Origin: a virus
Direction: 5' to 3' (one strand)
IMG/VR virus record: IMGVR_UViG_3300033149_002390
Span: 1 to 41,357 of that record
Length of the DNA: 41,357 nucleotides
Both the position numbers and the translations under genes were made by a program. Positions 2,952 to 20,394 of this stretch are shown here, one piece after another. The notes beneath the pieces were generated by a model that was given only the letters and a program-made list of their open reading frames with translations, did no database searches and was not told the DNA's origin. Each line of letters begins with the position of its first letter. Position 1 is the stretch's first letter.

Positions 2952-3863
2952 ATGAAAGAAAACAAACAAAAACAAACAGTAGAAGCTGAAATAATGCCTG
3001 TCCAATCAGAGCAGGCTGGTATTGCAAGGGCGAGCGATTTTGGGGCTGTTAGCCGAGAACATCATCAGCCCTCAGCGCTTGAAATTGCAACGTCGAGGGT
3101 TGCACAAGAGGTTCAAGCTCAGATGGTCGTCGCAAAGAAGTTTCCACGCAACGAGGCGGTATCGTTCGATAAGATTATGCGAGCTTGTAAGCGTAAGGGT
3201 CTTGCGGAGCAATCTATGTATGCTTATCCGAAGGGCGGGACGTTAGTACAGGGTGCGTCAATACGTCTTGCAGAGGAGCTTGCCCGCGATTGGGGTAATA
3301 TTGATTTCGGGATTGTCGAGCTTGAGCAGAAACGAGGCGAAAGCGTAATGATGGCTTATTGCTGGGACTTAGAGACTAATGTAAGGCAAACAAAAGTCTT
3401 TACCGTTCCGCATAAGCGATATACGAAGAAGGGAGCGTATCCACTAACCGACCCGCGAGAGATTTATGAAATGACAGCAAATCAAGGTGCAAGGCGGTTA
3501 CGAGCTTGTATATTAGGCGTTATTCCGGGCGATGTGGTTGAGGCAGCAGTCGAGGAATGCAAAAAGACGTTAGCTGGCAATAATCAAGAACCTCTGACTG
3601 ACCGAGTGCGCAAAATGGTTGCTGCATTTAGCCAGATGGGCGTAACAGTCGAGCAAATCGAAAAGCGTCTCGGGCATAAACTCGATGCAACCACAGAAAT
3701 TGAGCTGGTAAATTTACGCTCGATATACACTTCAATCAAGGACAATATGGCGGATATTAGGGACTTCTTCCCGATAGAGGAAAGTTCTGAAAGCAAAAAA
3801 TCTGCTGTTGACAGTTTGGTTGACAAAGTTAAAAAAGGTGCTGGCAACGAGGAGAAAGATTAA
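2952..3863 (+). CDS. Probable single-strand annealing protein (RecT-like)
   Basis: 303 aa, starting behind GAGGAG immediately after the YqaJ exonuclease. The N-terminal 45 residues are polar and probably disordered. The core has a helix-rich start (ALEIATSRVAQEVQAQMVVA), a glycine turn (YPKGGTLVQGASIRLAEELA) and basic strands (TKVFTVPHKRYTKKGAYPL, NQGARRLRACILGVIPGD). The C-terminal part (VEQIEKRLGHKL with a following short helix) resembles the C-terminal domain seen in phage RecT proteins. Pairing with YqaJ is the classic exonuclease/annealase arrangement. I am confident of the role from context, less so of the exact family. The stop overlaps the next start (ATGA-type). Confidence 0.7.
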   Translation: MKENKQKQTVEAEIMPVQSEQAGIARASDFGAVSREHHQPSALEIATSRVAQEVQAQMVVAKKFPRNEAVSFDKIMRACKRKGLAEQSMYAYPKGGTLVQGASIRLAEELARDWGNIDFGIVELEQKRGESVMMAYCWDLETNVRQTKVFTVPHKRYTKKGAYPLTDPREIYEMTANQGARRLRACILGVIPGDVVEAAVEECKKTLAGNNQEPLTDRVRKMVAAFSQMGVTVEQIEKRLGHKLDATTEIELVNLRSIYTSIKDNMADIRDFFPIEESSESKKSAVDSLVDKVKKGAGNEEKD

Positions 3864-4072
3864 TGAGCAAAATAAAGATTGAGATTTATCCGTATGAGAA
3901 CTTTGGTTGGTCATTTCGAATTGTATCTCGCAATGTGATTTTGCTCGATAGCGACCAAGTGTGGGATTCGGCTAATAGGGCGAAAGCAGAGGCTAAACGA
4001 GTGGTTGAGCAGATAAAGAATGCGGTAATAACCAAAATAGATATTTTAGGGGATGAATTTAAGGTAGCATAG
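3863..4072 (+). CDS. Small hypothetical protein (69 aa)
   Basis: 69 aa, overlapping the stop of the annealing protein by one base and preceded by GAGGAG. The product reads as short beta strands (KIKIEIYPYENFGWSFRIV) followed by one helix (ANRAKAEAKRVVEQIKNAV) and a final strand, a compact alpha/beta shape similar to YegP-type (DUF1508) domains such as the one at 35268. No active-site residues can be named. It is in the recombination operon. Confidence 0.7.
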   Translation: MSKIKIEIYPYENFGWSFRIVSRNVILLDSDQVWDSANRAKAEAKRVVEQIKNAVITKIDILGDEFKVA

Positions 4073-4084
4073 AAAGGAAAAACA

Positions 4085-4273
4085 ATGACTAAATTAGAGA
4101 AATTAAATGTAGAGGAGTTTAAGTTGCAGTTGGCGGATTTAATTAAAGCTGCGATTGATTTGCCATCTGGATACGAAGCAATTAAGGTTTCCGTCTTGCA
4201 TTTAGCTGAAGAGTTTGAACGAATTGAAAAGTTGCGAAAGGAAGCGAAAAATGGAAAACTTGTTAATAGTTAG
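4085..4273 (+). CDS. Small helical hypothetical protein (62 aa)
   Basis: 62 aa, starting behind AGAAAGGA. Almost entirely helical and amphipathic (LEKLNVEEFKLQLADLIKAA, then HLAEEFERIEKLRKEA). No recognised family. Its last 23 bases overlap the start of a tiny membrane peptide at 4251 in another frame, suggesting coupled expression. Confidence 0.65.
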   Translation: MTKLEKLNVEEFKLQLADLIKAAIDLPSGYEAIKVSVLHLAEEFERIEKLRKEAKNGKLVNS

Positions 4274-4343
4274 CGATATGACGTATAGCTTGTTTGTAAT
4301 CGCAATGGTATGTTTAATATTTGTTATCACGAAGGGAGAATAG
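4251..4343 (+). CDS. 30-aa single-pass membrane peptide
   Basis: The ATG at 4251 sits behind AAAGGAAG, inside the end of the upstream gene. The 30-aa product has one hydrophobic stretch (YSLFVIAMVCLIFVI, residues about 12-26) and ends with the polar TKGE, so it is a predicted single-span membrane peptide. The stop is 1 base before the ATG of the next gene. The tight overlap on both sides and a real ribosome site support it. Function unknown. Confidence 0.55.
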   Translation: MENLLIVSDMTYSLFVIAMVCLIFVITKGE

Positions 4344-4344
4344 A

Positions 4345-4608
4345 ATGAGTGGGGTTGCAATTGAAAAAAGCAATCTCGAATACATCGCTGAAAGGATTGC
4401 GGAGCTGGCGAAAAAGTATATCAGCGCAGAAAAGGGCAATCCGTATTATTTCGAGGATATTGAAAATCTTGAGGCTCATATCGAAAAGGCGATTGAGGAA
4501 TATGACAAGAACGAGATTATCGATATGCTTCATCTAACCAATGAAATTTTCGAGCTGACGAAAGAGGCGCTTAAGGAATATTTTCCCGAAAAAGAGCATA
4601 GTTGGTAA
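4345..4608 (+). CDS. Acidic helical hypothetical protein (87 aa)
   Basis: 87 aa from the ATG at 4345, 7 bases after GAAGGGAG; the longer TTG reading from 4321 lacks such a site. The product is acidic and helical (ERIAELAKKYISAEKG, IENLEAHIEKAIEEYDKNE), without Cys or membrane segments. It belongs to the small-protein string downstream of the recombinase. Function unknown. Confidence 0.7.
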   Translation: MSGVAIEKSNLEYIAERIAELAKKYISAEKGNPYYFEDIENLEAHIEKAIEEYDKNEIIDMLHLTNEIFELTKEALKEYFPEKEHSW

Positions 4609-4629
4609 TTGTAGCAAGGAGAATAAGAG

Positions 4630-5439
4630 ATGAAGAAATACGAGTTGATTAAAGACGAGTCTATTGATTGGAATGGACGACGCTTGTATAGGATTAGAGC
4701 ACTTCGTGATATTCCTGATGTAGGGGTAGGGGAGGGCGATAAAGGTGGATATATAGGGAAGGAAGATAATCTTTCGCACAAGGGCAATGCTTGGGTAGGC
4801 AGTAATGCTCGGGTATATGATAATGCTTGGATAGGTGGTAATGCGCAGGTATATGATAATGCTTGGGTAGGTGGCAATGCTTGGGTATATGATAATGCAC
4901 ATGTACATGGCAATGCTTGGATATATGGTGATGCACATGTAAGGGGTAATGCTTGGGTGGATGGTAATGCTTGGGTGTATGGTGAGGCTCGGGTAGGTGG
5001 TAATGCTCGGGTGTCTAACACTGTTTATGTAGGTAGTGGTTTTTTGTATAAAAAAGAGCCTAAAAATAGACTTGAAAAAATCAGATACCATCTTGCGGTG
5101 CAGCTTGGAATTTACCCCATTGAGGATTATGTAATTCTCTACAAGAGGGTTTGTAAGATGGGTAACAACACTTATTGCTCCAATTACGATGTGATGTTTA
5201 CGTATAAAATTGGCGAATGGGCAGAAGAAAAAGATCCTGATATGTCCAATGAAAGTTGTGCAAGGGGTATTCATCTGTCAACACCACTTTATTGGGAGAG
5301 AGGAGATGCTCTTATAGCTTGTAAAGTGATGCTCGAAGACATTATCACAGTGCAAGAAGGTAAGGTGAGGTGCAAAAAGTGTTTACCTGTTAAGGAAATA
5401 AAAATGTTTTCAAGCAAGGAGGAAGACAAAAATGTATAA
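4630..5439 (+). CDS. Hexapeptide-repeat (NAxVxG) phage protein
   Basis: 269 aa. Residues 1-45 match a phage N-terminal module (ending DKGGYIGKEDNLSHKGN). Residues about 52-128 are about thirteen hexapeptide-type repeats of the form NAWVYD, NAHVHG, NARVGG, expected to form a short left-handed or polymer-forming beta helix. The C-terminal 120 residues form a separate domain (SNESCARGIHLSTPLYW and two more Cys), similar to domains that follow such repeats in other phages. The gene starts behind AAGGAG. It may be an assembly or scaffolding-like factor; the true function is not known to me. The repeats are almost exact at the DNA level. Confidence 0.75.
   Translation: MKKYELIKDESIDWNGRRLYRIRALRDIPDVGVGEGDKGGYIGKEDNLSHKGNAWVGSNARVYDNAWIGGNAQVYDNAWVGGNAWVYDNAHVHGNAWIYGDAHVRGNAWVDGNAWVYGEARVGGNARVSNTVYVGSGFLYKKEPKNRLEKIRYHLAVQLGIYPIEDYVILYKRVCKMGNNTYCSNYDVMFTYKIGEWAEEKDPDMSNESCARGIHLSTPLYWERGDALIACKVMLEDIITVQEGKVRCKKCLPVKEIKMFSSKEEDKNV
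4783..5013 (+). repeat. Tandem 18-bp imperfect repeats inside the hexapeptide gene
   Basis: The unit GGTAATGCTTGGGTATAT (18 bases, six codons) recurs about thirteen times with small changes. The homogeneity suggests slippage or unequal crossover, so the copy number may vary between isolates. Confidence 0.85.
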
Positions 5440-7881: not shown

Positions 7882-8643
7882 ATGATGTTGATAATTAGTA
7901 AGGATATAGCAGAGCTTAAGCCTGATGATAGGAATGCACGCAAACACGATAAGCGTAATCTTGAAGCTATAAGGAATTCGTTGGAGCGGTTCGGGCAGCA
8001 AAAGCCGATTGTAATTGATAAGAACAATATAGTTATCGCTGGTAATGGTGTTTATTTTGCTGCTAAAGAATTAGGGTGGAAAGAGCTAAATTGTGTAGTT
8101 TGTGAATTAGATGATTTGAATAAGATGGCGTATGCAATAGCTGATAATAGAACGAGCGATTTGTCAGAATGGGACGATATGATATTGCAATCAATTTTAA
8201 CTGAATTGTCAAATCAAAAAATTGATGTGCCGGGTTATAACGAATCGGAATTGGATAAGATTTTGGGTGATATAGATGAGCGCAATATTTATACGGATAA
8301 AATAAGTATGCCTGATTATGAGCCGTTAGGGATGCCGGTAGATATAGATGATTTGTATGATGATAGTAAGGCTCGTGAACTAATTGCTGAAATTGATAAA
8401 TCTAATATAAGTGATGAATTAAAGAATTTTCTGCGGTTAGCTTCATATCGGCATGTTAAATTTGATTATGAAAAGATAGCGGAGTTTTATTCGCAGAATA
8501 AAGATAATAAGTTAATCAAAAAGTTGTTTGAGGATAATGTATTGGTGATAATTGATATGGAAGGGGCGATAAGGGCTGGAATAGTACAAATCAGGGACGA
8601 GGTTATGGAATTGTTCAAAAAGGAATATGAAGATGAAAGTTGA
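7882..8643 (+). CDS. ParB-like nuclease-domain protein
   Basis: 253 aa behind TAGGAG. Residues 1-75 form a ParB N-terminal domain: NARKHDKRNLEAIRNSLERF then PIVIDKNNIVIAGNG and FAAKELGW, the fold found in ParB CTPases and in phage DNA-modification operons. The usual GHRR-type arginines after the AG are replaced here by GNGVYFAAK. Residues 76-110 continue as a helix (MAYAIADNRTSDLSEWDD) typical of phage ParB/Srx proteins. The rest is charged and helical. The next gene (glycosyltransferase) overlaps its end by 17 bases. Known ParB-TAGT neighbourhoods suggest a role in base modification, which is inference. Confidence 0.85.
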   Translation: MMLIISKDIAELKPDDRNARKHDKRNLEAIRNSLERFGQQKPIVIDKNNIVIAGNGVYFAAKELGWKELNCVVCELDDLNKMAYAIADNRTSDLSEWDDMILQSILTELSNQKIDVPGYNESELDKILGDIDERNIYTDKISMPDYEPLGMPVDIDDLYDDSKARELIAEIDKSNISDELKNFLRLASYRHVKFDYEKIAEFYSQNKDNKLIKKLFEDNVLVIIDMEGAIRAGIVQIRDEVMELFKKEYEDES

Positions 8644-9508
8644 TAAAGCGGGGAAAATAGAAGATTTTGCTATATTTGTTTTATCGCATAGGCGAGCCGA
8701 TAAGGTTTATACGTGGAATATGCTAAAAAAATACGGTAATAAGCAAGATGTTTATATTGTAATAGATGATAGCGACGATGAGGCCGATAAATATGTAAAG
8801 CGTTTTGGTCGAAATAAAATAATAATTTTTAACAAAGATACAATGCGTGGAACTTTTGATATGATGGATAATGATACAGCTAATACTGGTGTTGTTTTTG
8901 CCCGGAATAAAGTTTATGATATTGCTGAACAATTACAATTGAAATATTTTTTGGTATTAGACGATGATTATAGTAAATTGGAATTTAAGATGGATAATTA
9001 TGGACGGTATCATGCAGCTGGAAAGGTTGTTAAGGATTTAAATACAATAATAATTAAACTTGTAGAAGTTTACGAGAAGATGCCTGATTATGTTGTAACA
9101 ATAGCTATTGCACAGACAGGTGATTTTATTGGCGGTAGGGCTGGGGGTCTTGCAAGAACTTTTGCGATAAAGAGAAAGGCTATGAATTGGTTTATTTGCA
9201 GCCCGAAAAGGAGAGTGGAATTTATCGGGCGGTTGAATGAAGATGTAAATACGTATGTTGCAGATGGTATGAAGGGAAAGGTCTTTTTGTCGATACCTTA
9301 TGTTTCTTTACGTCAAAGGCTTACGCAACAAAATACGGGAGGTTTAACAGAGATGTATTTAGACATGGGGACTTATCGGAAGAGCTTTTATTCAGTAATA
9401 TGTAATCCGAGCAGCGTTAAAATCATTAAAATGGGGACTATTTATCCGCGAATACATCATTTTGTCCAATGGCGATATGCTGTTCCTAAAATTTTGCGAG
9501 ATGGATAA
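8627..9508 (+). CDS. TAGT/GREB1-type glycosyltransferase
   Basis: 293 aa. The GT-A-like features are FVLSHRRADKVYTW near the N-terminus, the IVIDDSDDE strand, a metal/sugar-nucleotide DDD in FLVLDDDYSK (residues 112-114), then GDFIGGRAGG, MNWFICS, GRLNEDVNTY and a C-terminal GTYRKSF ... RIHHFVQW block. These match my knowledge of the TET/JBP-associated glycosyltransferase (TAGT) family, which phages use to glycosylate modified DNA bases and which is homologous to animal GREB1. The upstream ParB gene is coupled to it. I find no TET/JBP dioxygenase or hydroxymethylase in this genome, so the acceptor is unknown. A second possible start is ATG 8633. Confidence 0.8.
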   Translation: MKMKVDKAGKIEDFAIFVLSHRRADKVYTWNMLKKYGNKQDVYIVIDDSDDEADKYVKRFGRNKIIIFNKDTMRGTFDMMDNDTANTGVVFARNKVYDIAEQLQLKYFLVLDDDYSKLEFKMDNYGRYHAAGKVVKDLNTIIIKLVEVYEKMPDYVVTIAIAQTGDFIGGRAGGLARTFAIKRKAMNWFICSPKRRVEFIGRLNEDVNTYVADGMKGKVFLSIPYVSLRQRLTQQNTGGLTEMYLDMGTYRKSFYSVICNPSSVKIIKMGTIYPRIHHFVQWRYAVPKILRDG

Positions 9509-9679
9509 ATTTTGCCAGCTTTCTGCGGAAAAATTTTAAAAAAAATTGTATAATCGTCCAGCCGAGTTGAATATTTGTCTGAATTTTACAGCCTCCCCAA
9601 AATCGTTATTTTGGCTCGAAACATAGGTTTCGTGGCAGTTTTCGGGGGTTTTCGGTATTTCGGGGGATTTCTCGGGGGA
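9509..9679. other. Hairpins and repeated G runs upstream of the strong promoter
   Basis: Two perfect tetraloop hairpins, CCAAAAT-CGTT-ATTTTGG (9597-9614) and CGAAAC-ATAG-GTTTCG (9617-9632), are followed by three CGGGGG runs (G tracts at 9644-9648, 9662-9666 and 9674-9678). The G runs could be protein-binding repeats; a three-tract G-quadruplex is less likely. TATAAT also occurs at 9549-9554. Confidence 0.55.
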
Positions 9680-9748
9680 TAAAAAATCAAAAAAAATTGA
9701 AAAAAATTTGAAAAAAATTTGACTTTTTGTAGTATAATGTAGTATAAT
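9680..9748 (+). promoter_or_regulatory. Phased A-tracts and strong sigma70-type promoter
   Basis: Runs of seven or more A recur at an 11-bp step (about 9688, 9699 and 9710), which bends DNA and can act as an UP element. They lead directly into TTGACT (-35, 9719-9724), an 18-nt spacer and TATAAT (-10, 9743-9748); a second TATAAT is at 9733-9738. It should drive the hairpin-rich gene cluster from 9785. Confidence 0.8.
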
Positions 9749-9784: not shown

Positions 9785-10228
9785 ATGAAAAAAGAAAAAA
9801 ATTCTCCTGAAAAGAAACTCAATTTTTTCTTGATGGGGAGCTTTTACTTTAAATGCAACGGGGTGGTTGTACGAATATCTGACCACCCCGATTTCGGATA
9901 CCCGGGTCAAGAGGCTGACCTGGGTATTTTTTATAGCCCTTCTCTTGATTTAGGAGAGGGGTTTGTTTTTTACGTTCGCACCCGTTCAATAGATGGGCGG
10001 GTACGAAAAGTGAGGTTAGAGAAGCCTGCAAGTTTGCAGAGCTTCTTTAGCCTTGTAAATTATCTGCGATACTTTGCCGAAAAGGGTAGGCAAAGTGTTG
10101 TGGATAATCCTCACCATATTCCTGATTTCTCCGGAAATTGGGATATGGTTAAAAGGTGGGCAATCAGGCGATTGCCCAAAAAAAGTATAAACATAAGGCG
10201 GGAGATTTATCACTCTCGCCAATTTTAA
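9785..10228 (+). CDS. Hairpin-saturated gene A, unknown protein
   Basis: 147 aa from the ATG at 9785, behind AAGGGC. The N-terminus is Lys-rich, followed by beta-strand-like sequence (FYFKCNGVVVRISD, GFVFYVRTRSI) and a helix (SLQSFFSLVNYLRYFAEKG). No family is recognised. The striking point is the DNA: from 9859 to 10220 nine stems follow one another, for example CGGGGTGGT/ACCACCCCG (9859-9867/9882-9890), a 12-bp stem at 9898-9909/9916-9927 with one G.U, and TGGGCAATC-AGGC-GATTGCCCA (10157-10178). It is first in a run with the genes at 10239, 11363 and 11517. Confidence 0.75.
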   Translation: MKKEKNSPEKKLNFFLMGSFYFKCNGVVVRISDHPDFGYPGQEADLGIFYSPSLDLGEGFVFYVRTRSIDGRVRKVRLEKPASLQSFFSLVNYLRYFAEKGRQSVVDNPHHIPDFSGNWDMVKRWAIRRLPKKSINIRREIYHSRQF

Positions 10229-10238
10229 GGAGAATGCG

Positions 10239-11315
10239 ATGAATAAGGAATTGAACAAAATGGAACAGATAACTCCCACCCGGAATAAGCGTGGCGGGTG
10301 GGATTGGAAGTCCCCCGAATTTGGGCGGGAGAAGATTTGCTTTTACCCGCTCGAAGGCGGGGACAATAAATTTGCCGACGGCGACCAAATTGAGGTTGCC
10401 GTCGGTGAAGCTCGTCCTACCGGACGGGCGGATAGGCGGGGTGTGCCTATCTGGGTATGCCCCGCTAAATTTGCGCGCAAAGTATGGTCTGCATACGACC
10501 CTGCGCATTTGTGTTGTGGACAAAACAAGTATCCCCCCCGTGATGTTAGGTGGGGGGGATATAAAATAACTGCAGACGGGCGTAATGTCCGCCTGTGGTT
10601 AGATATAATAGCCCCTGACGGGCAGGTAATCGCCTGTGAAGATGTCAGGAGCTTTCGGGATGTCTGCGTAGGCAGGGCTGATAAACTCCTTGCCTATGCA
10701 GGCGAAAAAGCCTGCGCTGAAATAAAGGCGTGGGCTAATGGTTTACGGAATGAGCAGCAGCAACGGAATGCTGTTGCTCAAAAGCAGGCGGACGAACGCT
10801 TACAAAAGATGGTCGAGTGGGCAAAAGAAGAGCTTGCTCGACCGATGCCACGTCATCGTATAACGATTGATGGTGTGGCGGTTCGTTTCTATCTCCCCCC
10901 TGAAACGGATAAGGAAAGTCCGTTTACGGGTGGAGTTTATATCCGCCCAGCGGGGCGTGTTATCAGGGATGGTAATACGTCTATTTGGGTCGAAGATAAG
11001 GTGGGGAAGGGGGAGGAATATTGGGCGGTGTTCGTCCCGAAGGGAGTTATCCCGAAAGGACTGAATACCGTCCCGCCAGCTGTCCCTGACGAGGTTGGGG
11101 ACTTGCTGGCGACTTGGGATGAGGCGGTCGGGGCGACTCCCGACTATAATCTCATCTCAAGAGCAGTGTCTCATTATCACAAGAGACACTGCGTCAATAT
11201 CACAATTAAAATCAATCGACAGGATAAAGCCCCTGTTGATTGGGAAAGGGTCGGGGGCTGGAAAGAAGTAGGGGAAGAAATTAAGATTGGTAGGTATGTA
11301 TGCGGGCAGGGATAG
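10239..11315 (+). CDS. Hairpin-saturated gene B, unknown two-domain protein
   Basis: 358 aa behind a good AAGGAG site. Residues about 15-150 are beta-rich with Gly/Trp/Pro (GGWDWKSPEFG, GVPIWVCPAKFARKVW); a helix follows at about 155-205 (KACAEIKAWANGL, ERLQKMVEWAKEEL), then a second beta-rich part (HRITIDGVAVRFYLPPETD, TSIWVEDKVGKGEEYW). No known family is recognised. The coding sequence consists almost wholly of adjacent stems and is richer in GC than its neighbours. An open frame of this length with a good ribosome site argues that the protein is real. Its stop codon lies in the 3-nt loop of the terminator hairpin. Confidence 0.75.
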   Translation: MNKELNKMEQITPTRNKRGGWDWKSPEFGREKICFYPLEGGDNKFADGDQIEVAVGEARPTGRADRRGVPIWVCPAKFARKVWSAYDPAHLCCGQNKYPPRDVRWGGYKITADGRNVRLWLDIIAPDGQVIACEDVRSFRDVCVGRADKLLAYAGEKACAEIKAWANGLRNEQQQRNAVAQKQADERLQKMVEWAKEELARPMPRHRITIDGVAVRFYLPPETDKESPFTGGVYIRPAGRVIRDGNTSIWVEDKVGKGEEYWAVFVPKGVIPKGLNTVPPAVPDEVGDLLATWDEAVGATPDYNLISRAVSHYHKRHCVNITIKINRQDKAPVDWERVGGWKEVGEEIKIGRYVCGQG

Positions 11316-11331
11316 TCTCTGCCCGTTTTTT
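11303..11331 (+). terminator. Rho-independent terminator at the end of gene B
   Basis: CGGGCAGGGA (11303-11312) pairs with TCTCTGCCCG (11316-11325), 10 bp with one G.U, followed by six T. The loop is the TAG stop codon of gene B itself. Confidence 0.88.
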
Positions 11332-11362
11332 GTTTGGTTCTTTTAATGAAGGGAGAAATGCG

Positions 11363-11512
11363 ATGAAAAAAAGAGAAAAAAGTCAGGTCGAACGAATGAA
11401 AAACGCAATTAGGAAAGACATCAGAGCCAGGAAAAAAAGCCAAAAGAAAAAGGCAGAACAAGAATTCTTAATCGCCTTTTTTGATTTACTGGCTAAACGT
11501 AGGCGAGGGTAG
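11363..11512 (+). CDS. 49-aa highly basic protein
   Basis: 49 aa from the ATG at 11363, behind GGGAGAAATGCG. About 40% of residues are Lys or Arg (KKREKSQ, RKDIRARKKSQKKK), with a short hydrophobic helix near the end (FLIAFFDLLAKRRRG). This suggests a nucleic-acid-binding peptide. Unlike its neighbours, its DNA carries no notable hairpins. It lies between two terminators with genes B and C and could bind the structured transcripts, which is speculation. Confidence 0.6.
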   Translation: MKKREKSQVERMKNAIRKDIRARKKSQKKKAEQEFLIAFFDLLAKRRRG

Positions 11513-11516
11513 AAAA

Positions 11517-11888
11517 ATGAAAAGCAGAGTTATAGTAATTTTGAATGAGCAGCATCAGTTGCTCGACGAGCAGCGCCAAATACTTGATTTCAGGTTTGGC
11601 ACTGGGAAATGGGAAATTCTACACGTTCCGGCAGGAGGCTGGACGTTAGAACAAGTTTGGGAAGTTGCCGACAAGTTGAGCAACTTCTCAACGACCGTCA
11701 TTTTTGCCTCCCCCGTGCCAGCACTTATGAAAGAGCTGGCATACAGGGAAGGACGACGGGACGGGGCAGAGTATGGAGATGCCCCATTTACCGTAAAGCT
11801 GTTTCACAACGACCGTCGGGAAAAGAAGGAGCTGCCTGATGGTCGGCAGATTTCGGTTGTCGCCAAAGAAGGGTGGCAACTGGTGTAG
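11517..11888 (+). CDS. Hairpin-saturated gene C, Rossmann-like small protein
   Basis: 123 aa from the ATG at 11517 (GAGGG upstream). Alternating strands and helices (VIVILNEQHQLLDEQRQIL, EILHVPAGGWTLEQVWEVAD, TTVIFASPVPALMKELAYRE, FTVKLFHNDRR) suggest a small alpha/beta Rossmann-like fold. It is clearly paralogous to the product of 12465-12764 (VPIDGWSYNDILKITEELK, FVANIPVMLMFLAS, VHLFHCD). The DNA of this copy is made of adjacent stems (for example GAAGTTGC/GCAACTTC 11661-11668/11680-11687 and TGCCAGC/GCTGGCA 11716-11722/11735-11741); the paralogue's is not. Function unknown; a nucleotide-sensing or ring-nuclease-like role is only a possibility. Confidence 0.75.
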   Translation: MKSRVIVILNEQHQLLDEQRQILDFRFGTGKWEILHVPAGGWTLEQVWEVADKLSNFSTTVIFASPVPALMKELAYREGRRDGAEYGDAPFTVKLFHNDRREKKELPDGRQISVVAKEGWQLV

Positions 11889-11893
11889 GCTGT

Positions 11894-11919
11894 AGCCGGG
11901 TGATCCTGCCCGGCTTTTT
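11894..11919 (+). terminator. Rho-independent terminator after gene C
   Basis: AGCCGGG (11894-11900) pairs perfectly with CCCGGCT (11909-11915) across an 8-nt loop and runs into TTTTT. It ends the hairpin-gene transcript before the ASCH gene. Confidence 0.9.
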
Positions 11920-11961: not shown

Positions 11962-12276
11962 ATGAAAGCATTATGTATCAAACAACCTTATGCCAGCGAT
12001 ATTATGGCTGGGCGGAAAACTGTCGAATGGCGAAGCTGGCGGACGCATTATCGAGGAGAGCTGATAATAACGTCAGCCAAAAAGCCTGCCGAAAGGCTTG
12101 ACAACAAAAAAGATTATCCGTTAGGTTATGCCCTCGGGACTGTCGAGCTGGTCGATGTTAAGTATTTCCCGGATGAGGATTGCTACGGCTGGATATTTGA
12201 AAATCCCAAGCCGTTCAAAAAACCTGTTCCGGTGAAAAGTCAGTTAGGTATATTTAATTTGGAGATACAATTATGA
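11962..12276 (+). CDS. ASCH-domain protein
   Basis: 104 aa, a complete ASCH domain. The start LCIKQPYASDIMAGRKTVEW, the RTHYRGELIITSAKKP strand and the late ALGTVELVDVKYF strand match the family, which shares the PUA-like beta barrel. ASCH proteins bind RNA or modified nucleosides; the YqfB branch hydrolyses N4-acetylcytidine. It lies directly after the hairpin-rich genes, so an RNA ligand encoded next door is an attractive idea. The stop overlaps the next start (ATGA), indicating coupling with the ribbon-helix-helix gene. Confidence 0.85.
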   Translation: MKALCIKQPYASDIMAGRKTVEWRSWRTHYRGELIITSAKKPAERLDNKKDYPLGYALGTVELVDVKYFPDEDCYGWIFENPKPFKKPVPVKSQLGIFNLEIQL

Positions 12277-12464: not shown

Positions 12465-12764
12465 ATGCGAGCTATTATCATTGTTGATAAAAACATAGGA
12501 TTAACTGTGGAACAAAAAGAAACGCTAAATCGATTTTATCCGAAGCAGCAAATAATGGAAGTTCCTATTGACGGTTGGTCTTATAATGATATTTTGAAAA
12601 TAACAGAGGAATTAAAAGAGAAATTGGATGTTGGCTTTGATATCGTTTTTGTTGCCAATATTCCAGTTATGCTAATGTTTTTGGCGTCTTATGTTAGTTC
12701 TTGCTACACAAATGGGTCGGTGCATTTGTTTCATTGCGATAAATCGATATCTATATTTATTTGA
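12465..12764 (+). CDS. Hairpin-free paralogue of gene C
   Basis: 99 aa behind AAAGGAGA. It shares with gene C the first strand (AIIIVDKNIGLTVEQKETLN), the VPIDGWSYNDI turn, the central FDIVFVANIPVMLMFLAS strand-helix and the VHLFHCDKS strand, and is shorter at the C-terminus. It is AT-rich and I see no comparable stems in its DNA. The pair therefore separates protein-level constraint from the RNA structure of gene C. Function unknown. Confidence 0.78.
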   Translation: MRAIIIVDKNIGLTVEQKETLNRFYPKQQIMEVPIDGWSYNDILKITEELKEKLDVGFDIVFVANIPVMLMFLASYVSSCYTNGSVHLFHCDKSISIFI

Positions 12765-12850: not shown

Positions 12851-13216
12851 ATGCACGATATTACAGATGACGATATTGGGTGGGCGTCGCAGGTTGTCGA
12901 GAAATTAACTCGCAAATGGCATACGCCATACAACCTCAAAGAGGATTTACACTCTGCTGCTTATCTGGGGCTGGTTAAGGCTGCAAAAAGGTATTCCCGC
13001 AAAAAAGCAAAACGACTCGCCAAAAAATTAAATCGAGCCCCCTCGACCTTCCGGACTTACGCAATGTATTGGATACTCAAGGAATGCAAAATGTTAATCG
13101 ATGCTGAAAAAAAACAAAAAATGCTCTTGAACAACGTTAAAGACAGTATAATATTTCATAGGGGGAAAGGCGTTTTAGAAATTTCCGACATTGTGCCGGA
13201 AGAAGAAAGTGAATAA
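12851..13216 (+). CDS. Sigma-70-like protein with region 2 only
   Basis: 121 aa. The stretch from NLKEDLHSAAYLGLVKAAKRY (minus its last residue, residues about 28-47) through the basic KKAKRLAKKL to STFRTYAMYWILKECKML matches sigma-70 region 2: 2.1/2.2 core binding, then 2.3/2.4, which melts and reads the -10 box. It stops about 35 residues later with an acidic tail (DIVPEEESE). There is no helix-turn-helix region 4, which normally reads the -35 box, and no frameshifted continuation that I can find. It sits just before the late genes, suggesting control of late transcription. The start has no ribosome site, but an in-frame stop at 12830-12832 excludes a longer reading. Confidence 0.75.
   Translation: MHDITDDDIGWASQVVEKLTRKWHTPYNLKEDLHSAAYLGLVKAAKRYSRKKAKRLAKKLNRAPSTFRTYAMYWILKECKMLIDAEKKQKMLLNNVKDSIIFHRGKGVLEISDIVPEEESE
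13143..13153 (+). promoter_or_regulatory. AGTATAATA promoter-like motif inside the sigma-like gene
   Basis: ACAGTATAATA, followed by TTTCATAG, matches the word found at 19044, 23017 and 29112. It lies about 100 bases upstream of the structured RNA at 13254 and could drive it. No -35 box is visible. Confidence 0.45.
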
Positions 13217-13797: not shown

Positions 13798-14343
13798 ATG
13801 CCAAAACAAGGTCGAGTTGAAATTAAAAAAACTGCGGACGGTGAAGAATATCAGGCGGAATATGATAATAACGATATTCGAGCTGTCCCGCTGAAATACA
13901 GACACCTCAAGCCCGGAAATCCGTTATACGATTTAGCTATTCGTGGATTAAAGATGGGGTTATATGTAAAGACGGTTGCTGGTTGGTTGGGCATAGACAC
14001 TGCAACGATATATAAGGCTGCGAAAAAATATCCTGAATTAGCAGAGGCGCTTTATGAAAAGGGCAATCAAACAAAAATGGGAATATTAGCGAGAGTGATA
14101 AATAAAGCTGCGATTGAAGATAATTTATCAGCACAGATTTACTATCTTAATCGAATTGCGAATGCTCCGAGCAAGGTTCAGCGTGCTGATGATTATCGTA
14201 ACCCTGCCAAATTTATAAAGTTACCTGTTGTCCCACCTGAATGGGTAGATAACGATGAAGGCGATGATGATGAAGAAGATAGCGAAGCTGAATTAGGTTC
14301 GGGGGAAAGTTCAGAGGAAGGTTCGGGGGATTATGGCAGTTAA
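13798..14343 (+). CDS. Terminase small subunit
   Basis: 181 aa. A central helix-turn-helix-like part (GLKMGLYVKTVAGWLGI, DTATIYKAAKKYPELAEAL) resembles the DNA-recognition domain of phage small terminases. It is followed by a helix and a strongly acidic tail (NDEGDDDEEDSEAELG). The large subunit gene starts 11 bases inside its end. It should bind phage DNA at the packaging start and recruit the large subunit. The start ATG is behind AAGAGA, a weak ribosome site. Confidence 0.8.
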   Translation: MPKQGRVEIKKTADGEEYQAEYDNNDIRAVPLKYRHLKPGNPLYDLAIRGLKMGLYVKTVAGWLGIDTATIYKAAKKYPELAEALYEKGNQTKMGILARVINKAAIEDNLSAQIYYLNRIANAPSKVQRADDYRNPAKFIKLPVVPPEWVDNDEGDDDEEDSEAELGSGESSEEGSGDYGS

Positions 14344-15784
14344 GTTCGTTTTACAACCTGATTTATGGATATTCTGGGAAGGTGGGCAGCGGGATTTTGT
14401 TTACGATTTCAAGCATAGGTATATTGCGATTGAGGCTGGCTGGATGAGCGGGAAAACGTATGCAGGCGCTCGAAAACTTATCTCTCTGCATTTGCTCAAT
14501 TCGGTGGACGCTCGGGGCAAGCCTACTTATGTCCCTTCACTTGTAGTTGCCCCGTCGATAAATGCGCTTGAGGATTTTATGATACCGGAACTCGAAAAAG
14601 CCTGCTCTGAAATAAACCTTGATTTTGAATATCAGCCCGGAAAGCGCAGGGTTGCATTGCCCGATTTGGGGCATAGGGGGGGGATGATTTCACATATCAA
14701 GATGCGGACAGCGGAACGTCCTGATTTGATTACAGGCTTTGAGGTTGGGGCGATATGGGGCGACGAGGCTGCAAGATGGAAGTGCGATATGCATAATCCG
14801 AAAAACGACCCGTTTATTCAGTGTATTGGTCGTTTGAGACACCCGAAAGCGAATATTCTTCAAGCATTGTTCACTTATACAAACGAAGGGGATACAACGA
14901 GAGTTTACAAGTGGATACGAGAGCAAAATGAACAACGGGACAGGGCAGTTTATCAAGCTCGGACATTGGATAATCCAGTCGCAAAAGATTTTTATGAGGC
15001 TATGTCTGGGGCTTTGACAGACGATTTGAAAGTTCAATATCTTGAAGGTGGAGCGATAACGCTATCTGGTGGCAATGTATATCGAGCATTCAATCCTGAT
15101 GTCAACATCGACCAAAATATAGGCTATGACTTTAATCTTCCGCTACAGATTTCGATAGACTTCAACATATCGCCCGGAATGCACTTGATAATCGGGCAGT
15201 ATGATTTAGAGAAGGATTTGTTTACTGCGATTGATGAGTGTTTTGTTCGGCGTGGTTCGGTTCGAGAAATAGTTGAGGAGTTTGGACGGCGGATAAAGCA
15301 TATTATTGAGGCGAGTGCAGGCAAAAGATTTCCGTTTCCAGCATTGGAGGTTTACGGTGATGCTACCGGAAAAAGCGAATGGGCGGGGACTGGTGAGAGC
15401 TGCTATATGATACTCGGAGACGGGCTTACTTTGCTGCAGAAAAGACTAAATGTCGATTTTGGTGTTCGAGCAAAAATCCCGAAAGTAAATCCGTATATAG
15501 AAGAGCGCATAAACGCTGTAAATGTGGCATTCAGGGACTTAAACGGTAATTGCCATTATAAGATACATCCAAGATGTGAGAGGCTTATACGGGATTATAA
15601 AGAGCTTAAACGAAATGCTAAAGGTGAGGTCGATAAAAATAGCGACCCTGAATTGTCTCACGCCTCAGACGCTGAAGGTTATCGGATACATTATCAGAGA
15701 CCTGTTAGAAAAATAGGTAATAGAATGGGCGGGCGAGTAAGTGTTAATGCTACTGTCTATAATAATCCAATCGTATCTGTATAA
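14333..15784 (+). CDS. Terminase large subunit (ATPase and nuclease)
   Basis: 483 aa. Walker A is AGWMSGKT (residues 35-42), a variant of the usual G-rich loop. Walker B is VGAIWGDEAARW with Asp144/Glu145. The C-terminal RNase H-like nuclease has Asp in LQISIDFN, EVYGDATGKSEW near residue 342 and Asp in SHASDAEGY near residue 444. This enzyme pumps DNA into proheads and cuts it. It is complete, and its place before the Mu-like portal is standard. Whether it makes cos, direct-repeat or headful ends is not decided by the sequence. Confidence 0.95.
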   Translation: MAVKFVLQPDLWIFWEGGQRDFVYDFKHRYIAIEAGWMSGKTYAGARKLISLHLLNSVDARGKPTYVPSLVVAPSINALEDFMIPELEKACSEINLDFEYQPGKRRVALPDLGHRGGMISHIKMRTAERPDLITGFEVGAIWGDEAARWKCDMHNPKNDPFIQCIGRLRHPKANILQALFTYTNEGDTTRVYKWIREQNEQRDRAVYQARTLDNPVAKDFYEAMSGALTDDLKVQYLEGGAITLSGGNVYRAFNPDVNIDQNIGYDFNLPLQISIDFNISPGMHLIIGQYDLEKDLFTAIDECFVRRGSVREIVEEFGRRIKHIIEASAGKRFPFPALEVYGDATGKSEWAGTGESCYMILGDGLTLLQKRLNVDFGVRAKIPKVNPYIEERINAVNVAFRDLNGNCHYKIHPRCERLIRDYKELKRNAKGEVDKNSDPELSHASDAEGYRIHYQRPVRKIGNRMGGRVSVNATVYNNPIVSV

Positions 15785-19713: not shown

Positions 19714-20394
19714 ATGGCTACTTATGGAACGATACAAACTCAAACGGCAACACCTCGCAATGTAATTTGGGGTGGAAAGCCTGATTTGCTTCCGGGTGGA
19801 GCTGTTATTGACGGTTCTGAAGCTCGGGATATTGGTAATTCACCAGTATTCGATTTAAGAGCTGGATTGCTTTTAGGCAAGGAAACGTCCAACGGATTAT
19901 GGGCGCCGTCTATTATTGGTGTTACGACTGCGGATTATTCGTCTGGCGAAACTACACTTACAGTTTCGACTGCTACGGCTGTTGAGATTGTTAGGCGAAT
20001 AGGTTCGAGTGGGTCTGGGACGATTAAAATTACTGGTTATACGTCTGGAGACTCATCTGTAACGACTAAAGCTATAACGTTTAGCGCTGTCAATACAACG
20101 AATGGTGAGATTACTGTAACAGACTTGCAAGATGATTTCGATAGCGGTTCATTTATCCAGCCTGCAGATGGCTCGGAGACTATTCTGGGTATTCTGGGCG
20201 ACCCTTACGGCGTAAGAGTTGTTGACGAAGACCAGAATGACATTGATGTTCCTGCTTCGCAGATAATCATCGGCGGGATAATCGACACTGATTATATCGT
20301 TCATTATCCGTCCCTTGCATTGCTCAAGAGCTGGATAAAAGAACAGCTTCGAGCAAATGGAACGGGCTATGCGTTTGATGACGATTTGAGCTAA
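19714..20394 (+). CDS. Head decoration-like or capsid-associated protein
   Basis: 226 aa behind ATAGGAGT, between the scaffold and the major capsid protein. It is rich in Thr, Ser and Gly beta strands (TTLTVSTATAVEIV, GTIKITGYTSGDSSVTTK). The position and composition match head decoration or capsid-stabilising proteins. No specific family is certain. Confidence 0.65.
   Translation: MATYGTIQTQTATPRNVIWGGKPDLLPGGAVIDGSEARDIGNSPVFDLRAGLLLGKETSNGLWAPSIIGVTTADYSSGETTLTVSTATAVEIVRRIGSSGSGTIKITGYTSGDSSVTTKAITFSAVNTTNGEITVTDLQDDFDSGSFIQPADGSETILGILGDPYGVRVVDEDQNDIDVPASQIIIGGIIDTDYIVHYPSLALLKSWIKEQLRANGTGYAFDDDLS

Follow-up and report, generated by a model that had tools for sequence, protein, structure and literature searches.

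About 45 Predicted RNA Hairpins in Tandem Within Three Coding Genes of a Tailed DNA Phage

The 41-kb virus record IMGVR_UViG_3300033149_002390 of IMG/VR, analyzed here over its full length of 41,357 nt (the window), is that of an uncultured, tailed double-stranded DNA (dsDNA) phage and includes genes for the terminase, portal, head protease, major head, and tape-measure proteins. On its plus strand lie three genes, which we call A, B, and C, whose coding sequences are predicted to fold as sense RNA into one short hairpin after another, and between B and C sits a small open reading frame (ORF) that is not built in this way. How can a message be folded almost throughout and still encode proteins, and what might a phage gain from such a message? 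The features from which the argument starts are these:

9785..10228, plus strand: gene A, which codes for 147 aa of no known family; its coding sequence is about 10 hairpins, the strong ones at 9859-10220
10239..11315, plus strand: gene B, which codes for 358 aa, again of no known family; its ~25 hairpins begin at 10274, the first ~30 nt after the start being comparatively open
11363..11512, plus strand: small ORF of 49 aa, rich in Lys/Arg and located between B and C; without hairpin structure (mean pairing 0.37)
11517..11888, plus strand: gene C, which codes for 123 aa; ~10 hairpins, counting one 3' of the stop; low-confidence alpha/beta model

Results

Hairpin domains were counted on the predicted fold of the sense RNA, with paired bases no more than 60 nt apart. 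So counted, A, B, and C make up 10 + 25 + 10, or about 45, consecutive domains of 5-23 bp, separated by 0-26 unpaired nt, with a longest uninterrupted helix of 20 bp and a predicted folding energy of -43, -44, and -38 kcal/mol per 100 nt. An earlier note on this DNA had described three protein genes built from consecutive RNA hairpins with their frames kept, and that description holds: the annotated frames run without a stop for 147, 358, and 123 codons and have the best codon score, while the other frames contain many stops. The five stems that it gave as examples are all present, those at 10530-10561 and 11163-11192 as perfect 10-bp helices and the two of 12 bp (10375-10405 and 10751-10780) and one of 11 bp (10664-10701) with a single G.U each. 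Its range, 9859..11888, also takes in the unstructured small ORF.

The hairpins, compared across the array, have no common sequence or motif, and their stems occur in all three codon-phase registers, 3:3 included. Because they share no sequence, a repeated sequence-specific binding site along the RNA is unlikely, and a repeat or integron-like array is ruled out; being short and dense as well, they suggest that structure itself, and not a recognition site, is what seems to be selected. Rfam gave no family above its gathering score (best subthreshold match, E 0.003). Codon usage is equally atypical in both stem arms; the difference in rare codons between stems and loops was mostly reproduced by shuffles, and we do not use it as evidence.

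Could chance, codon bias, or dinucleotide content have produced such a fold? The earlier note had doubted that the first two could easily do so, and three kinds of shuffle rule out all three. Against mononucleotide shuffles, positions 10001-11000 give z = -29.8; against shuffles that keep protein and codon usage, the sense strands of A, B, and C give z = -10.7, -15.3, and -8.0; and with dinucleotide counts kept as well, in shuffles that alter only 24-47% of codons, the values are -5.5, -10.9, and -4.5, with 0 of 200 shuffles per gene reaching the observed energy. The excess is also present with a maximal span of 40 nt and with no span limit. The observed excess of structure is real and very strong.

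The same folding test, applied to other genes, tells how far out these three lie. The ratio of folding energy to that of shuffles is 1.81 for A, 1.56 for B, and 1.44 for C, above the 1.28-1.39 of genes from the single-stranded RNA (ssRNA) phages MS2 and Qbeta; phiX174 gives 1.00-1.15, T7 genes 0.93-1.21, and most other genes of the present phage 0.93-1.19. The exceptions within the phage are a paralogue of C at 12465 (1.34, on few codons and with a weak z) and the gene at 19714 (1.28). This last gene (19714-20394), directly 5' of the major head gene, is milder than A, B, and C, with z from -4.3 to -7.2 and ratios of 1.20-1.28 depending on the null.

As a base rate, we scored composition-corrected stem excess in 5,784 segments of 600 nt from this phage and ~165 phage or viral loci. 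The strongest segments of the array, beginning at 9901, 9601, 10201, and 10801, rank 1, 2, 3, and 5; the others (e.g., 10501 and 11701) are less extreme and overlap with the tail of the background. None of 1,484 segments from 32 bacterial loci matches the array's top four. Candidates chosen from the background list had folding ratios of 1.11-1.28, except for viral locus L094, which reached 1.44 and an AT-rich stretch of which takes rank 4. In that locus, positions 3801-4901 are 26% GC, largely noncoding, and unusually hairpin-dense.

Is it the RNA or the DNA that is structured, and on which strand? Stem cores were defined by Watson-Crick pairs alone, a definition that is neutral as to strand, and the non-Watson-Crick positions at core edges were then counted. 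G.U occupies 33 of 63 such positions (52%) where synonymous shuffles give 21% (binomial p 2.8e-8, with positions that are not fully independent of one another), while A.C, which is G.U on the opposite strand, occupies 9 of 63 against 15% expected and is not enriched. Since G.U is enriched and A.C is not, the signal seems to reside in the sense-strand RNA rather than in the DNA or the antisense strand; DNA-level functions (cruciforms, origins) are disfavored by the same comparison. Selection on the sense RNA is the most economical account of the G.U excess, and strand-biased C-to-T mutation a possible alternative. No such excess was found in ordinary genes of this phage, T7, MS2, or Qbeta, in the last two plausibly since their minus strand must fold too.

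If the three genes are translated, their ribosome-binding sites should be accessible, and they are comparatively so. Mean pairing at -20..+2 of the A, B, and C starts is 0.23, 0.35, and 0.27, rising to 0.54-0.60 at +33..+132, and in C the structure is back within the first 30 nt. Such open starts are as expected for a translated mRNA, although lower structure near starts has been surveyed across dsDNA viruses generally (PMC3072339). Because the three frames and their start sites are intact, an assembly artifact is unlikely. The small ORF has z = 0.0 against codon-keeping shuffles, computed on a frame shifted by one base (11364-11510), and a longer frame, 11300-11509, which takes in a terminator-like hairpin, has z = -2.1. 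Its Lys/Arg-rich product may be a nucleic-acid-binding peptide.

Relatives of the three proteins proved hard to come by. Searches with tblastn of A, B, and C against phages and of B against plasmids, and scans of IMG/VR with A, B, the paralogue of C, C plus paralogue, terminase large subunit (TerL), and TET-associated glycosyltransferase (TAGT), returned no relative of A, B, or C besides that paralogue. Among 160 viral loci reached through TerL and TAGT alignments and 32 bacterial loci reached through TAGT, none has a homologue of A, B, or C or an equally dense array. Neither Pfam, PHROGs, nor NCBIfam matched A, B, or C to maturation, coat, or replicase families. The low-confidence structural model of C (predicted local distance difference test, pLDDT, 57) suggests a Rossmann-like alpha/beta core, with no confident match in the PDB, and the model of B (pLDDT 42) is unusable.

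The surroundings of the array are as follows:

7882..9508, plus strand: ParB-like gene and TAGT, neighbors of terS/terL elsewhere; left flank of the inserted block
9719..9748, plus strand: sigma-70-like promoter TTGACT-18-TATAAT, 11/12, the best of the region, just 5' of A; a consensus match only
11302..11326, plus strand: intrinsic-terminator-like hairpin, 11 bp with a 3-nt loop, then TTTTTGTTTG; overlaps the stop of B
11894..11915, plus strand: intrinsic-terminator-like hairpin after C, 9 bp, then TTTTGTTTAT
11962..12276, plus strand: ASCH-domain gene 3' of C, not rich in hairpins
12465..12764, plus strand: paralogue of C (26% identity, E 1e-9), two genes 3' of C, AT-rich, with weak excess structure
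13798..15784, plus strand: terS and terL, terS by position only; right flank of the inserted block

The promoter and terminator calls are consensus matches, not proof, and the number of terminator-like hairpins is inflated by the hairpin-rich sequence itself; the hairpins of B and C continue into those at the ends of their genes. In other phages the ParB-TAGT pair adjoins terS/terL, and TAGT also adjoins terL. Here they are separated by a 4-kb block (~9.6-13.7 kb, between TAGT and terS), whose left half is A, B, and C. The block looks like an accessory insertion. The phage also encodes RusA, YqaJ, and two DNA methylase genes. Its closest TerL relatives are ~29% identical and its closest TAGT relatives ~47%; judged by sequence, it is a distant lineage. 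The ParB-like and TAGT pair (7882-9508) recurs beside the terminase in phages with very different hosts, and that recurrence suggests DNA hypermodification in this phage too. Two smaller observations belong to the same region: a small gene 5' of terS (12851-13216) has a weak match to sigma-70 region 2 (Pfam E 1.6e-4, under the cut-off), and the intergenic stretch 5' of the promoter-like site (9560-9680) contains short repeats, e.g., TTTCGGGGG.

Discussion

The excess of structure, its confinement to the bodies of three genes, the bias toward G.U rather than A.C, and the lack of shared sequence are all computed, and they point to a previously unrecognized selection that acts on the RNA itself. 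What might it be for? The earlier note had named as possible roles protection from RNases or RNA-targeting defense, a decoy for host sensors of double-stranded RNA, and an RNA that works in the virion. We favor, at a probability of roughly one in three, gene-scale structure selected in the mRNA to shield it from single-strand RNases or RNA-guided attack, over a decoy or dual-function RNA, tuning of expression in cis, and template switching. A, B, and C would form an accessory block in the phage genome, probably with a promoter of its own and read as one mRNA; the sense mRNA of the coding sequences would have been selected to fold, in cells, almost wholly into short local hairpins, with translation starts left comparatively open; and structure per se would protect this message, to the phage's benefit, from factors that require single strands, whether host or defense endoribonucleases, RNA-guided effectors, antisense RNAs, or Rho. 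RNase III prefers two helical turns, and most domains are shorter than this, which we count for the shield. We also count the precedent of viruses with genome-scale ordered RNA structure (GORS), whose structured RNA has been proposed to escape sensing (PMC3950689).

Several points weigh against the shield. Only three of ~60 genes are so built, the small ORF of the same block is not, and a general protection of mRNA leaves both facts unexplained. Our searches gave no homologue of A, B, or C besides the paralogue of C, and a single record might be no more than a rare oddity. All of the RNA structure is prediction. Such heavy structure may also cost output, since in bacterial operons translation efficiency can be predicted from ORF-wide structure (PMC5318159).

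Might the RNA work in trans instead? Its short double-stranded RNA (dsRNA) stems would then titrate a host dsRNA-binding protein or contact phage proteins, the encoded proteins being a second product, and the targets of such a decoy could be RNase III, a CdnE-type cyclase that senses dsRNA, or other sensors. We consider this unlikely but worth keeping in mind, as a dsRNA-binding target would need structure without sequence conservation, which is what the array has; a small basic ORF lies within the block; and CdnE03, a cyclase of the cyclic oligonucleotide-based antiphage signaling system (CBASS), senses hairpin phage RNAs from the terS-terL region (PMC10686824), 5' of which the array lies. 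However, a decoy has no need for three ORFs with their start sites kept open, and CBASS-activating bacteriophage RNA (cabRNA) activates defense, so that a phage would rather shed such structure. A role in cis, to which we give a little less credence, would have ORF-wide hairpins set the speed or efficiency of translation of A, B, and C compared with the small ORF or, in a variant covered by the same judgment, protect the RNA as it is made from R-loops, Rho, or antisense pairing. The structure does end at ORF borders and spare the small ORF, and ORF-wide units of structure in bacterial operon mRNAs do predict translation efficiency (PMC5318159); yet the degree of structure exceeds that of the ssRNA phages tested, and there are far simpler ways to weaken translation.

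It is also conceivable, if improbable, that the stems were made by mutation, with repeated local template switching creating or homogenizing inverted repeats (quasipalindrome correction) while RNA structure was hardly selected, if at all. Coding genes are indeed altered by template switching between inverted repeats (PMC8604942), the spread of stems over every codon register would fit, and the segments of C that are missing from its paralogue fall in hairpin regions, although so does most of C. What such a process would not be expected to give is G.U enrichment without A.C enrichment, unless mutation were strand-biased; the equally atypical codon usage of the two arms also speaks against it, even if shuffles reproduce most of the stem/loop difference, and the spared starts and small ORF are left unexplained. 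Finally, an RNA-virus-like or virion-packaged RNA, compacted for packaging, seems to us very improbable: ssRNA phage genes alone came near in the folding test, but no match to a levivirus or replicase family was found for A, B, or C, the G.U enrichment does not occur in MS2 and Qbeta, and the paralogue of C sits in the phage itself.

To a broader reading that covers both shield and decoy we give rather less than even odds: the coding RNA would have been selected as a working molecule in its own right, with ~45 dsRNA hairpins in tandem over 2 kb that encode three proteins and also act as RNA in counter-defense. The earlier note knew of no described phage gene class of this structure, and our literature search, limited and incomplete in coverage, found no report of hairpin-packed dsDNA phage genes. 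Should the structure prove functional, DNA phages can be under selection for mRNA structure as strong as in RNA phages or stronger, though confined to single genes, and this would point to a pressure on phage mRNA, be it RNases, RNA-targeting immunity, or dsRNA sensing. Hairpin-packed genes would be a class invisible to homology searches, and phage genomes are worth scanning for them.

What does the array most resemble? Like the array, the cabRNA of staphylococcal phages bears hairpins and is transcribed from dsDNA phage coding genes around terS-terL (PMC10686824), and it shows that such RNA can matter to immunity; cabRNA, however, is at most ~400 nt and comes from terS/terL, whereas the array is ~2 kb, belongs to three accessory genes, and ends ~1.9 kb 5' of terS, outside the terS/terL transcription that marks cabRNA. 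GORS, proposed to hide RNA from sensors, shares with the array a pervasive structure through coding sequence with no discrete shared elements, but it spans a whole RNA genome, whereas here it is the mRNA of three dsDNA phage genes that is structured and the rest of the phage is ordinary (PMC3950689). In the ssRNA phages (Leviviricetes: MS2, Qbeta), as in A, B, and C, coding-sequence folding energy lies far below that of codon-preserving shuffles; A, B, and C differ in their larger ratios, G.U-enriched stem edges, and lack of replicase, coat, or maturation homology. GOLLD and ROOL are large structured phage noncoding RNAs, and the Rickettsia palindromic elements (RPE) are inserted into ORFs; the former share with the array the long structured phage RNA and the latter the hairpins within ORFs, but the hairpins of the array are simple, unrelated in sequence, set in intact ORFs, and without an Rfam match above the gathering score. 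In its working, the array resembles GORS or the coding RNA of ssRNA phages, and it is a member of neither.
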